Origin: Clostridia bacterium
GTDB taxonomy: Bacteria; Bacillota; Clostridia; UBA1212
Length of the DNA: 36,511 bases
NCBI GenBank assembly: GCA_017848335.1
Contig: JAGDAX010000034.1
Span: 1-36,511 of the forward strand
Reading direction: 5' to 3'
In this document: positions 16,019 to 35,232 of the stretch, piece after piece
Layout of the letters: each line of letters starts with the position of its first letter
How positions within the stretch are numbered: position 1 is the first letter of the stretch
Notes under the pieces: generated by a model
Told to the model about the DNA's origin: nothing
Seen by the model: only the letters and a program-made list of their open reading frames with translations
Databases searched by the model: none
Translations under genes and position numbers: made by a program

Positions 16019-16047
16019 ATTATACCATGCCGGCCGCGTTTAGTGAA
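16019..16047 (-). promoter_or_regulatory. Promoter of the sugar isomerase/esterase operon
   Basis: On the minus strand TTCACT (16042-16047), a 17-bp spacer and TATAAT (16019-16024). The start point would fall near 16012, inside or next to the ribosome binding site, so the leader would be only about 13 bases. Confidence 0.6.
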
Positions 16048-16069
16048 GAGCCAACGTATGCAAACGTCT

Positions 16070-16143
16070 GAACCTGCCTCTGAACCTCTGAACCTGCCGG
16101 AACCTCTGAACCTGCCGGAACCTCTGAACCTGCCGGAACCGCC
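16070..16143. repeat. 18-bp tandem repeat between divergent promoters
   Basis: Three exact copies of AACCTCTGAACCTGCCGG (16083-16136) with partial copies on both sides. It lies between the divergent promoters of the isomerase and SASA-esterase genes. The period is a multiple of three, which lets an artefactual frame (LNLPEP repeats) run through it. Confidence 0.95.
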
Positions 16144-16173
16144 TTGCGGTACTGCCTGCGATAAGCGTATAAT
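16144..16173 (+). promoter_or_regulatory. Promoter of the SASA-family esterase gene
   Basis: TTGCGG (16144-16149), an 18-bp spacer and a perfect TATAAT (16168-16173). The expected start near 16180 is about 37 bases before the ATG. The -35 element abuts the 18-bp repeat array. Confidence 0.6.
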
Positions 16174-16216
16174 AAGCCTGCGGCTTACCGCTGAAAATCA
16201 CGAAGGAGTTTGTACA

Positions 16217-17080
16217 ATGAAAAAAGCGGAGATCATCATATTGTCGGGCCAGTCCAATGCAGTGGGCGTGGGCCATGCCGAATACCTTCCCAAGCATTTC
16301 CCACCGGAGAAGGTTGAAAAGTGGAAAAACGGCTATCAGAATATCAAAATCAACTATTTCTCACACGACAAGAAAAGCAACGGCTTCGTTCCCACGACCA
16401 TCGGCTGCACGGAGATCTCCAAGGTCACCGTCGGGCCGGAGCTGGGCATTGCGGACGCTCTTGACGAGCGCTTCCCGAGCCGTGAATTTTTCATCGTAAA
16501 GTGCGCATACGGCGGCATGTCGCTCTACCGAGACTTCCTGTCACCTTCCTGCGGCGGCCCTTACGACCCGGAAGCCTTTGCCGACCAGTACGAAAACATC
16601 GTTGCAAGCTCGGAGCAGGGATTGCCTGTCCGTCCGGGCTGGAGCTACAACGAGCTCGTGAAGATCACCCGCGAGAGCATCGGGATCCTGGAAGCGCAGG
16701 GCTTCGTCCCCTCCGTCAAGGCCTTCTGCTGGATGCAGGGCGAAGCCGACTCCGGCACCGAAGAGAACGCGGAGCAGTACATCGGCCTCTACGGGCATAT
16801 GATTTCCGACTTCAAAAAGGAATTCGCCGGCTATATGGACGGTTGCCTCTTCCTGGACGCGGGCATACACGAGCTGTGGGTCTTCCACGAGAAGATCAAC
16901 GCCGCCAAGAAGGCCTTCGCAGAAGCCCATTCCGACTGCGTGTTTATAGACACCATCGCCGCGGGCCTCACCTGCGCAAAGGAACCGGAGGGATGTGTGG
17001 ATATATACCACTACGACTCGGACTCGGTCATAGCCCTGGGGCACCTGTACGCAGACAGGATTCCGGTGGAAGGACAGTAA
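16217..17080 (+). CDS. SASA-domain carbohydrate esterase (sialate O-acetylesterase family)
   Basis: A 287-residue SGNH-type hydrolase. Block I is LSGQSNAVG with nucleophile Ser13. The family block WMQGEAD is at 172-178. The catalytic Asp-His pair is probably in the C-terminal CVDIYHYDSDS. Relatives remove acetyl groups from xylan or sialic acid (CE6 and SASA families). No signal peptide is present, so it should act on imported oligosaccharides. The ATG at 16217 follows AAGGAG nine bases upstream. The frame stays open upstream to 16043, but that stretch is an 18-bp tandem repeat and not part of the protein. It is transcribed divergently from the sugar isomerase/CE15 pair, suggesting one glycan-degrading function. 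Confidence 0.85.
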   Translation: MKKAEIIILSGQSNAVGVGHAEYLPKHFPPEKVEKWKNGYQNIKINYFSHDKKSNGFVPTTIGCTEISKVTVGPELGIADALDERFPSREFFIVKCAYGGMSLYRDFLSPSCGGPYDPEAFADQYENIVASSEQGLPVRPGWSYNELVKITRESIGILEAQGFVPSVKAFCWMQGEADSGTEENAEQYIGLYGHMISDFKKEFAGYMDGCLFLDAGIHELWVFHEKINAAKKAFAEAHSDCVFIDTIAAGLTCAKEPEGCVDIYHYDSDSVIALGHLYADRIPVEGQ

Positions 17081-17106
17081 ACAGTTCTTTGGCCGATCTG
17101 TCAGCT

Positions 17107-17448
17107 GCGCCATAGCGAAAGCGCCGATGCTTTGCCGTCGGGATAACAGGACTTAGGAGTATAACGACTTGAGGGAGCCCCGGTAGGTCTCCCTTTTTGG
17201 AATCGGTTCGACGGTCAAAACATTGTCTCGAGAGCGGTTCCGCACCCGGTGCGCCATAGCGAAAGAGCCGATGCTTTGCCGTCGTGATAACAGGACTTTG
17301 GAGTATAACGACTTGAGGGAGACCCGGTAGGTCTCCCTTTTTGGAATCGGTTCGACGGTCAAAACATTGTCTCGAGAGCGGTTCCGCACCCTGTGCGGCA
17401 TAGCGAAAGAGCCAATGCTTTGCCGTCGTGATAACAGGACTTTCTTCT
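17107..17448. repeat. 144-bp tandem repeat array downstream of tRNA-Leu
   Basis: Two complete units (17107-17250 and 17251-17394) and the start of a third, nearly identical. Each unit contains GCGCCATAGCGAAAG, then GATAACAGGACTT, which matches the reverse of the 3' end of the neighbouring tRNA-Leu gene. Next comes TATAACGACTTGAGGGAG, a hairpin GGGAGACC-CGGTA-GGTCTCCC with TTTTT, and a GGTTCGACGGTC block. The second unit is the cleanest; the first carries a few substitutions (GGGAGCCC in the hairpin). The plus-strand hairpin plus T-run looks like an intrinsic terminator and occurs twice. The period is a multiple of three, so an artefactual protein frame runs through it. Confidence 0.95.
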
Positions 17449-17533
17449 CGCTATCGGAAGACCCACCGGGTCTTCCTCCCGGACCTTCCTCGCTTTGCTT
17501 GAACGTCCGGAGCTCGTTTCAAGTCCTGTCTTT
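17444..17533. other. 90-bp insertion inside the third repeat copy
   Basis: Compared with copy 2, the third copy is split by 90 extra bases. The sequence CTTT occurs at both junctions (17440-17443 and 17530-17533). The insert holds a hairpin GGAAGACCC/GGGTCTTCC and ends in AAGTCCTGT (17521-17529), the exact inverse of ACAGGACTT (17434-17442) just before the insertion. Confidence 0.7.
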
Positions 17534-17536
17534 GGA

Positions 17537-17585
17537 GCATAACGACTTGAGGGAGACCCGGTAGGTCTCCCTCAAGTCGTTATGC
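17537..17585. repeat. Perfect 22-bp inverted repeat fused to the tRNA 3' end
   Basis: The left arm (17537-17558, starting GCATAACGACTTGAG) and right arm (17564-17585) are exact reverse complements around the loop CGGTA. The right arm overlaps the last three bases of the tRNA-Leu gene. In the 144-bp units the outer part of one arm is replaced by TTTTT, turning the palindrome into a terminator-like hairpin. Confidence 0.95.
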
Positions 17586-17661
17586 GGATAACAGGACTTG
17601 AACCTGCACGCTTGCGCACTGGTTCCTAAGACCAGCGTGTCTGCCATTCCACCATATCCGC
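17583..17661 (-). tRNA. tRNA-Leu, anticodon UAG
   Basis: The minus strand starts GCGGATATGGTGG and ends TATCCGC plus discriminator A. The acceptor stem GCGGATA/TATCCGC is perfect. The anticodon stem CTGGT/ACCAG encloses CTTAGGA, which gives anticodon TAG (codon CUA). The variable arm (about 11 bases around GCGCAAGC) is consistent with a class II tRNA, and the T arm GCAGGTTCAAGTCCTGT is normal. CCA is not encoded; the next bases are TAA. At 79 bases it is short for tRNA-Leu because the variable arm is short. It has its own strong promoter. Confidence 0.95.
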
Positions 17662-17678
17662 GCGTTGGTGCGGGTACG

Positions 17679-17707
17679 ATTGTAGTGTATTTGGGCAGTT
17701 TTGTCAA
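17679..17707 (-). promoter_or_regulatory. Consensus promoter of tRNA-Leu overlapping the galactokinase stop codon
   Basis: TTGACA (17702-17707), a 17-bp spacer and TACAAT (17679-17684) on the minus strand. The -35 hexamer contains the galactokinase stop codon (17704-17706), so the tRNA promoter starts within the end of the upstream gene. Confidence 0.9.
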
Positions 17708-18915
17708 GTGAGCTCCCTGGCGCCGTCGCCCACGGAGCAGGCGTAAAACTCCGGAGTATTGCCGGTGGCTTCTGTGTACAGGCGGGCGACGTGCCGCTCG
17801 AATTCCTCCACGCTGTCCTTGCGTACAATATTGACCGTGCAGCCGCCGAAGCCGCCGCCTGTCATTCGTGCGCCCACAGTGCCTTCGAAGCTTATTGCCG
17901 CGTCAAACATCGCGTCCAGCTCCTCGCCCGTAGCCTCGTAAAGGTACCGAATCGACTCGTTGGCCTCACGGAGAAGCCTTCCGAATGCGGCCAGATCGCC
18001 CTTCTTGAGCACCTCCACGGCTTCCCTGACCCGGATATTCTCGCTCACCACGTGCAGGACGCGCTTCCTGATCGTATCGTCTTTAATCTCCGGAGCGTAT
18101 GCCTTGAGCTCTTCGCGGGAATAGCTGCAGAGATTGTCGCGCGGAACGGCCACGCCGTGAGTTCTCTCGATGGCCTGCATTTCCTCAAGGCCGACTGTGA
18201 CTTCGCGGCGTCTTTCATTGTACTTGGAGGCTCCGAGGGCATGCTTCTTGCAGGTATTTGCAAGCACCAGCAGATTGTCGCCCAGGTCCAGCGGCACGTA
18301 TTCGTATTCGAGCGTTGCGCAGTTCAGGAGGATCGCGTTGTCCTTTCTGCCCATTGCGGAGGCAAACTGATCCATAATGCCGCAGTTAACGCCGCAGAAG
18401 TTGTTTTCCGCCCTTTGCCCGGCAAGAGCCAGCTCCACAGGCGTGAATTTGCCCCCGAAAAGCGCGTTCACGGCAAAGCCGGTGACCGTCTCCTGAGAAG
18501 CCGAGGAAGAGAGCCCGCTGCCGATGGGTACGGTCGGGTGGAACACCATGTCGAAGCCGCCAATTTCAAGGCCCGCCTCAGCGAGCTCCTTGACGACGCC
18601 TGCCTGGTAATTGCCCCAGCGAAGGGTCTTCGCGCGGTCGATATCCTCAAGGTCGAACTCGTACACGCCGTCAAGAGTCGTTGCCGCGAGCCTCACGGTC
18701 GAAGCAGTGCCGTTCTTCCTGACCGCCGCCACGGTATCCAGAGTCAGCGCCGCAGGGAACACGTATCCGCCGCAATAATCAATATGCTCGCCGATAAGAT
18801 TCACGCGGCCCGGAGCGGCGAAGAACCGCAAGTCCCTGCTGTCGCCCTTGCTCTTGCCGAAGGTCCCGGCAAACCTTTTTTCAACTGTCTGCATTTTAAG
18901 AATTTCGTTGTCCAT
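17704..18915 (-). CDS. galK: Galactokinase (GHMP kinase family)
   Basis: Phosphorylates alpha-D-galactose at C1 with ATP, the first committed step of the Leloir pathway, in the cytoplasm. The galactokinase signature GRVNLIGEHIDYCGG lies at 36-50 and the GHMP ATP-binding loop PIGSGLSSSASQ near 120-131. A C-terminal GHMP motif MTGGGFGGCTVNIV is present. The start is set at ATG 18915 because GGAG lies 11 bases upstream, giving 403 residues, normal for GalK. The frame is open to 18957 but that ATG has no ribosome binding site. No galT, galE or transporter gene is adjacent, so the Leloir genes must be elsewhere. The tRNA-Leu promoter overlaps its stop codon. Confidence 0.95.
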   Translation of the reverse strand: MDNEILKMQTVEKRFAGTFGKSKGDSRDLRFFAAPGRVNLIGEHIDYCGGYVFPAALTLDTVAAVRKNGTASTVRLAATTLDGVYEFDLEDIDRAKTLRWGNYQAGVVKELAEAGLEIGGFDMVFHPTVPIGSGLSSSASQETVTGFAVNALFGGKFTPVELALAGQRAENNFCGVNCGIMDQFASAMGRKDNAILLNCATLEYEYVPLDLGDNLLVLANTCKKHALGASKYNERRREVTVGLEEMQAIERTHGVAVPRDNLCSYSREELKAYAPEIKDDTIRKRVLHVVSENIRVREAVEVLKKGDLAAFGRLLREANESIRYLYEATGEELDAMFDAAISFEGTVGARMTGGGFGGCTVNIVRKDSVEEFERHVARLYTEATGNTPEFYACSVGDGARELT

Positions 18916-34536: not shown

Positions 34537-35121
34537 TTACAAGAATTTAACAAGCCTGTAAAGGCCGTTGCCGTGTTTGGTCTCCGGAGATTTCCCGGAC
34601 TTTTCCACGCATTTTTCCGGAGATTTCCCGGACTTTTCCACGCATTTTTCCGGAGATTTCCCGGACTTTTCCGTGCAATTTTCCTCTTCGCCGCTCCCTT
34701 CTTCTGCAAAGCCGAGGCGAAGGTAGAAACGAAGAGCGGTTATTGAAGCATCGAGAACGATTTTCCGGCACCCGCGAAGCAATGCCTCCGCTTCAAGCGC
34801 CTCCATGATGCTGCGCCCGATCCCGCGGCCCTGATACTCCGGGTCCACAAACAAGGCGCTGACCAAACCCTCGCCGCTTTCCTCCCGAAAAGAAATCCCG
34901 CCGCAGCCGCTTATCGCGCCGTCAACTGCCGCAACCTTAAGGAGCATGTTTTCAGCACGGCTGATGATATTCCCGGCGCTGTAGACACCGACAAGCCTTG
35001 CAATTTCCTCAGCGGGATAATCACGGCTGTTGGATATCCGCAAGGTTCTTCCTATCATAGCGGAAACCGCGTCCGCATCGCTCATGCTAAAATCGCGAAT
35101 CGTAATGCCTGAATTCTTCAT
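34537..35121 (-). CDS. GNAT acetyltransferase interrupted by an 11-residue tandem repeat
   Basis: A 194-residue N-acetyltransferase. The acetyl-CoA loop PEYQGRGIGRSIM lies near 100-112, followed by KIVLDASITALRFYLRLGF. Three copies of CVEKSGKSPEK (33 bp each) are then inserted, and the frame ends with HGNGLYRLVKFL, which looks like the missing last beta strand of the fold. The repeat therefore sits inside the domain, in the loop before the final strand. The substrate is unknown. ATG 35121 has a GGGGGC site upstream; the frame to 35163 is less likely. It groups with the DUF6935-like gene downstream. Confidence 0.85.
   Translation of the reverse strand: MKNSGITIRDFSMSDADAVSAMIGRTLRISNSRDYPAEEIARLVGVYSAGNIISRAENMLLKVAAVDGAISGCGGISFREESGEGLVSALFVDPEYQGRGIGRSIMEALEAEALLRGCRKIVLDASITALRFYLRLGFAEEGSGEEENCTEKSGKSPEKCVEKSGKSPEKCVEKSGKSPETKHGNGLYRLVKFL
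34583..34681. repeat. 33-bp tandem repeat inside the GNAT gene
   Basis: Three nearly identical units start at 34583, 34616 and 34649 (TCCGGAGATTTCCCGGACTT and following). The period is a multiple of three and keeps the acetyltransferase frame open. Confidence 0.97.
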
Positions 35122-35154
35122 AGAACGCCCCCGAGGAATGCTTCCGGAAATCAC

Positions 35155-35232
35155 AACGCACACTCACACTCACGCTCACACTCACACGCACGCTTACAAC
35201 GCATACTCACGCTCACAATGCACACGCACAAA
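35155..35232. repeat. Six-bp CACTCA/CACGCT repeat between the two GNAT genes
   Basis: About twelve degenerate hexamers (CACTCA, CACGCT, CACACG) upstream of the GNAT gene at 34537. On the minus strand they read GTGAGC or GTGAGT. Confidence 0.85.

Follow-up and report, generated by a model that had tools for sequence, protein, structure and literature searches.

The rtT or tyrT repeats of Escherichia coli (Rfam RF00391) are tandem units lying behind a tRNA gene, each with a copy of the tRNA 3' end; to our knowledge, they have neither a tRNA-matched inverted copy nor interchangeable cores and are not spread over many tRNA genes. In integrons, the attC site is folded, has complementary ends, and keeps its structure better than its sequence; it occurs in cassette arrays, some of them with genes. 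In the attP site of the CTX phage, the target core occurs twice in inverted orientation, at a distance of about 90 nt, and the copies pair in single-stranded DNA, while the bridge RNA of IS110 is structured and has segments that are complementary to the sequences on either side of the insertion point. Finally, islands and prophages inserted at tRNA 3' ends are marked by a direct repeat of that end and keep the tRNA intact (PMC9897764). The array analyzed here belongs to a group of folded units anchored at tRNA genes which, to the extent that our tools can show, was previously uncatalogued, and a search of the open-access literature, with subscription papers outside its range, found no description of such units.

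The window, i.e., the whole stretch of 36,511 nt that was analyzed, carries on its minus strand a gene for tRNA-Leu(UAG) (17583-17661), preceded by a promoter-like site (TTGACA-17-TACAAT, 17679-17707, minus strand), which is putative and agrees with the consensus at 11 of 12 positions, by consensus match only. No such site was found inside the array behind the gene. The 144-bp tandem array reported in an earlier note on this DNA proved to be real, since TRF placed it at 17106-17443 (2.3 copies, 96% match), with units starting at 17106 and 17250 and a partial one at 17394. As the note had also stated, GATAACAGGACTT, the complement of the T-arm/acceptor region of the tRNA, is present in each unit, and there are four copies: (T/G)GATAACAGGACTT occurs at 17141, 17285, and 17429 as well as at 17586 inside the tRNA itself, whose T-arm/acceptor 3' end is the source of all of them. 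Unit 1, distal from the tRNA (17106-17249), and unit 2 (17250-17393) contain tRNA-end copies at 17142-17154 and 17286-17298, respectively. The hairpin ending in TTTTT, which had been ascribed to every unit, is indeed present on the plus strand in both of them (17171-17198 and 17315-17342) but is absent beside the tRNA. What follows the tRNA is the perfect 22-bp palindrome (17537-17585; arms 17537-17558 and 17564-17585, loop 5) that overlaps the last three tRNA bases, just as the note described; it occupies the position that the terminator hairpin has after the tRNAs of other units. This tRNA-Leu(UAG) has no encoded CCA, the sole such case among the 31 scanned tRNA genes of the genome, and relatives encode it; the palindrome begins at the position expected for CCA. 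A terminator scan of 16900-17900 returned none, probably because its stem rule consumes the T run, and the hairpins of the array were judged by sequence and folding.

Compared with the 144-bp units, the copy adjacent to the tRNA has about 90 extra bases ('...CTCCAAAG[ACAGGACTTGAAACGA...GAGAAG]AAAGTCCTGTTATC' vs '...CTCCAAAGTCCTGTTATC'), and removing them leaves CTCCAAAGTCCTG, the sequence of the 144-bp units. Read on the minus strand, these bases form a recurring element of three parts: an inverted T-arm copy, INV (ACAGGACTTGAA, 17518-17529), complementary to tRNA nucleotides 54-65; a folded core of about 75 nt, called type A (17443-17517), with helices P2 and P3 and conserved loops; and a direct copy of the tRNA 3' end, DIR (AAGTCCTGTTATC, 17430-17442), corresponding to nucleotides 57-69. 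INV pairs with DIR in a helix, P1, that closes the structure around the two inner arms (-47.2 kcal/mol, z -5.2). Units 1 and 2 have neither INV nor core, and the partial third copy (17394-17443) terminates in DIR. The basic module is not the 144-bp unit, which looks like a derivative devoid of the folded core. It might be argued that the hairpins are a bidirectional roadblock shielding the tRNA from converging transcription, and hairpins with T5 on the plus strand do follow a gene of that strand, the end of which is at 17080. This reading leaves the tRNA-matched INV and DIR copies and the conserved cores unexplained, however, and we consider it very improbable. Two further repeats of the window lie within reading frames: an 18-bp tandem repeat (16063-16140, 4.2 copies) opens the longest frame of a SASA-family esterase ORF (16043-17080), the true start of which may be downstream, at 16218, and three 33-bp repeats (34583-34684) in an acetyltransferase-like ORF (34537-35163, minus strand) encode a repeated KSGKSPEKCVE tail.

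The genome from which the window comes (2.4 Mb in 169 contigs, 79% complete) was searched for the type A element both by DNA and by model. It also adjoins tRNA-Leu(CAG) on contig C22, where a second copy is cut off by the contig end, and tRNA-Val(GAC) on contig C167, and no other tRNA of the genome. The three cores are alike, with compensating changes in P2 and P3, and INV and DIR match the local tRNA (GCAGGACTTGAA and AAGTCCTGCTATCCGCACCA beside tRNA-Leu(CAG), GATAGGACTTGAA and AAGTCCTATCGTCCCCACCA beside tRNA-Val). Within this genome, three of the four tRNAs with the T-arm TTCAAGTCC carry the element vs none of the 28 others (Fisher p = 8e-4). In all three copies, the fold of the tRNA strand is somewhat more stable than that of the other strand (-47.2, -40.8, and -38.0 vs -41.5, -33.8, and -35.6 kcal/mol), both as RNA and as DNA. 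A model search of relatives and of the order gave type A matches in this genome only, and the core had no match in phages or plasmids. Exact-pattern matches in five viral contigs and 46 genome contigs were dismissed as chance, because none of them scored with the type A model.

To see how general this arrangement is, we took nine genomes of the genus and family, with 189 tRNA genes among them, and looked, within 600 nt downstream of each gene, for an inverted T-arm copy of at least 9 nt and, 50-330 nt further on, a direct 3'-end copy of at least 11 nt. The order tRNA, terminator, INV, core, DIR was found at 18 of the 189 genes (for Leu, Val, Lys, Ser, Ala, His, Met, and Gln), vs 5 of 3757 combinations of mismatched tRNA ends and downstream regions and 0 of 189 upstream regions. 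A scan of reverse-complemented downstream regions (18 matches) does not serve as a control, since reversal leaves the symmetric layout unchanged. INV usually starts 42-69 nt past the tRNA, after a terminator-like hairpin. The start of DIR depends on the type of core, lying at tRNA nucleotide 57 for type A, 56 for type B, and mostly 58-59 for type C. The complement of INV spans this start point in 16 of the 18 rows; at the tRNA-Gln of genome G001, an exception, the reported INV is a chance earlier match and the proper one lies further on. INV is not simply the 5' strand of the T-stem, a candidate that was rejected since the antisense of the loop is present (e.g., ACTCGAA for TTCGAGT) and since INV matches the complement even where the tRNA stem has a mismatch. 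At tRNA-Val(CAC) of genome G003, 20 nt of INV are exactly antisense to the T-arm, of which only 8 nt pair with DIR; INV is therefore either genuinely copied in inverted form or under selection for pairing with the tRNA itself. By the test proposed in the earlier note, the occurrence of further copies near tRNA genes of the same genome and the recurrence of the layout in relatives refute the view that the array is a single random duplication.

At least four types of core can be distinguished: A (that of the window), B, and C in the genus, and D outside it. Types B and C occur in all five other species of the genus that were searched (53 BLAST matches) and were not found in the genome of the window. 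Type D is present in a different genus of the family and in further families of the class, with tRNA-end pieces at tRNA-Leu, -Lys, and -Tyr, without a clear copy at tRNA-Glu, and also at sites away from tRNAs. In two genomes (L109 in G108:C53 and L166 in G309:C9), 5'-end copies of tRNA-Leu that lie upstream of the intact tRNA have their D-loop interrupted by D elements; a tRNA loop is involved here too, and the arrangement mirrors that of the T-loop arrays. Genome G350 has at least 15 places with D-family copies (including L139, L143, L148, L155, L159-L164, and L168), several of them near-identical; no tRNA was found nearby in the fetched stretches, and the copies there form a dispersed repeat. 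The idea that types A, B, and D derive from one ancestor was not upheld, as cross-searches were weak (best E 0.084 for the A model on B and C loci, best E 1.4 for the D model); the pieces common across types, a CCGGUGG hairpin tip and a CAAGC-loop-GCGCAG arm, are suggestive only.

The array of tRNA-Ser in G003 has three units, whose cores are B, C, and C and each of which consists of hairpin, INV, core, and a DIR reaching CCA. The same arms hold differing cores, so the arms belong to the tRNA, while the cores have been exchanged. Elsewhere, C is nested within B and D within D, and gene-free units of 60-290 nt are the rule. These data bear on the possibility that the tRNA 3' end and terminator were merely duplicated in tandem and then drifted, with hairpins as replication-error by-products of palindromes. 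Duplication does happen: the two complete 144-bp units of the window are in register and 97% identical, and G008 has three similar units in tandem. Yet different cores between the same tRNA-matched arms at the tRNA-Ser of G003, together with the same cores at different tRNAs, speak against plain repeated duplication, which leaves no room for the inverted T-arm copy or for covarying folds either. We thus find this explanation, and with it the earlier note's idea of relics of repeated duplication, improbable. The array of the window is neither an artefact nor a single duplication, but one decayed member of a wider group of tRNA-anchored folded units.

The folds of these units are real. Among 44 aligned elements of the D family, 90% of paired cells are standard and two-sided changes occur at 37 of 39 pairs; the covariation score is 0.558 vs 0.163 for shuffled alignments and at most 0.076 with slid partners, figures that lean toward the model to which the alignment was fitted, though the margin is very large. 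In eight type B elements, two-sided changes were seen at 24 of 43 predicted pairs, including those of P1, which follows the tRNA; the hairpin adjoining P1 uses the end of INV and reads ACCC-GAGA-GGGT at most tRNAs and ACTC-GAGA-GAGT at tRNA-Ser. With Rfam 15, cmscan identified the tRNA alone in the window at gathering level and no family for the cores, and permissive searches of the related loci gave matches far below the curated cut-offs.

Such covariation could mean that INV, core, and DIR are RNA genes, transcribed as a small structured RNA with a tRNA-like end (CCA, then a terminator), comparable with rtT of the E. coli tyrT operon. Since INV is antisense to the T-arm, tRNA maturation could be a target of this RNA or of read-through transcripts, and action at the RNA level is possible because INV at tRNA-Val(CAC) of G003 is longer than its pairing with DIR requires. 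The strong covariation, the DIR copies that often reach CCA before a terminator, and the greater stability of type A folds on the tRNA strand agree with this reading. So does the excess of G-T over A-C pairs in the D family (100:38), but this strand bias is weak evidence, because model and alignment favor G-U by construction. On the other hand, the units start behind the terminator-like hairpin of the preceding tRNA, no promoter-like site was found in the array of the window, and tandem, nested, and cargo-bearing layouts with cores swapped between tRNAs would not be expected of fixed RNA genes. All in all, we regard RNA genes as a rather doubtful explanation.

The reading that we prefer, to which we give about an even chance, is that the array is a partly decayed, cargo-less tandem set of site-specific insertion units anchored at tRNA-Leu. 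The tRNA-matched inverted and direct copies flanking each unit suggest insertion at tRNA genes, one unit after another, and the notion of a tRNA-derived mobile repeat or serial integration, raised in the earlier note, is in part supported by the copies beside other tRNAs and the layout at 18 of 189 genes. According to this model, a unit would have the order tRNA 3' end, terminator hairpin, optional genes, INV, and folded core and would enter at the T-loop (tRNA nucleotides 56-59). With a fresh 3' end and terminator from the incoming unit, the tRNA would stay usable, and the old 3' end would be left behind as the distal DIR copy. INV would be complementary to the target across the junction (typically tRNA nucleotides 51-66) and would pair with DIR, closing the fold, so that INV, core, and DIR would together make up the recognition site, in the form of folded single-stranded DNA or folded RNA. 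A circular unit recombining at the T-loop, in which the core would be joined to CGAATCCC, would yield the observed order with the tRNA intact. The position of DIR, the interchange of cores, their nesting, and the gene cargo speak for insertion; that it was insertion rather than another copying process is inferred, as are the order of these events and the folded state as substrate. Against insertion count that no recombinase is linked to the arrays in general, that no clean empty site was found, the relatives having unrelated DNA downstream of tRNA-Val(GAC), and that a D pattern had no match in viral contigs. That the unit works like a folded attachment site is our leading idea, one that we hold to be about as probable as not. 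Ordinary recombination copies DIR from the target but would not remake INV for each new tRNA. A more tentative version of the model is a new class of pairing-directed mobile unit, in which an INV of 12-20 nt, complementary to both sides of the T-loop point, might guide a small folded molecule, either RNA or single-stranded DNA, to its place in a tRNA gene; there units would stack, exchange cores, and collect genes, some of them defence-like.

Gene cargo lies between units at several tRNAs (1.5-7 kb in total), and some of its products match candidate defence families: AbiLi (E 1.9e-29), PDC-S01 (E 2.6e-115), and PDC-M13B. At L354, L355, L356, and L359, the cargo includes genes for an AbiLi-like ATPase, an AAA_14/DUF4143 protein, and an HTH-DUF3990 protein with such matches. 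A further possible explanation is that the units are ordinary scars of phages or integrative elements that used the tRNA as attB, with the folded stretch as the arm region of attP. Direct repeats of tRNA 3' ends are the usual mark of integration (PMC9897764), tRNA-Leu(CAG) genes of the same genus bear gene cassettes ending in a tRNA half of 50-odd nt, and one integrase adjoins tRNA-Leu(CAA). Moreover, on contig C14 of G200 (L158, 135500-140520, minus strand), an integrase-like C-terminus at the contig end, a motif recognized by eye, precedes three gene-separated D elements. That case is the exception, as neither phage genes nor a recombinase were otherwise found in the units. A regular-expression scan detected no tyrosine-recombinase signature near most copies, and none of the four tyrosine recombinases found in the genome of the window is near its three type A loci. 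Gene-free units of such small size are not what this explanation predicts, arm sites of a double-stranded att need no conserved fold, and, besides the lack of type A matches in phages and plasmids, a type D pattern had no match in 2.9 million viral contigs nor a type D locus in plasmids. Ordinary att scars are therefore hardly a likely account of the units.

Several neighboring arrangements were recorded as well. The three D elements of L158 have tRNA-like ends and are separated by genes for an AGCS symporter and for an acetyltransferase, each accompanied by a regulator gene (functions assigned by eye). In the genome of the window, an integrase gene faces the 3' end of tRNA-Leu(CAA) (L198, contig C56), with a displaced 5' half of tRNA-Leu on its other side, which is an ordinary integration event. 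Behind tRNA-Leu(CAG) of G001, G004, and G005 (L101 1501-2200, L102 490-1460, L097 and L103 at about 1500) lies DNA with small ORFs that ends in a 3'-half copy of the tRNA from the anticodon loop on, preceded by a shared 'CACCAAGGTAAC.CTACCA'; these cassettes look like a second, separate cassette-like integration system.

Set against the described systems, the units resemble each of them in part. Like rtT, they are tandem and have copies of a tRNA 3' end, but the RtT model matched neither the window (cmscan, gathering threshold) nor the related loci (permissive thresholds). With integrons they share arrays of small units, some with genes, and a conserved fold of variable sequence; the target here is the tRNA T-loop, however, no integron integrase was identified, and instead of the attC core sites RYYYAAC...GTTRRRY, the ends have the T-arm sequence of the host tRNA and change with it. 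Paired inverted copies of the target recall the CTX attP, but the target is a tRNA, not dif, and the units are of 60-290 nt with no phage genes. As in tRNA islands, the 3' end of the tRNA is present as a flanking direct repeat, the tRNA is intact, and some arrays have gene cargo, whereas the units are minute, have a folded core and a tRNA-matched inverted copy, and usually have no integrase nearby. They differ from IS110 in having no transposase gene and in bearing the complementary segment at the edge of the element. Nor do they agree with group IIC introns, since cmscan gave no group II intron match in the window or the related loci and a reverse transcriptase gene would not fit into so short a unit. 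None of rtT, attC, the CTX attP, and tRNA islands is thus matched by the units in all of its defining features, and filing them as a member of the integrons or of rtT would be wrong on present evidence.

If the insertion model is true, bacteria of this group would possess a compact insertion system, independent of any recognised integron or phage, for which tRNA T-loops serve as landing sites and folded units mark the boundaries, and it would help to explain how small variable gene sets accumulate behind tRNA genes. A guided mechanism could then be tested directly through the pairing of INV across the junction. If the units are RNA genes instead, they would represent an RNA family as yet unlisted, with strong covariation and with ends that follow the host tRNA.
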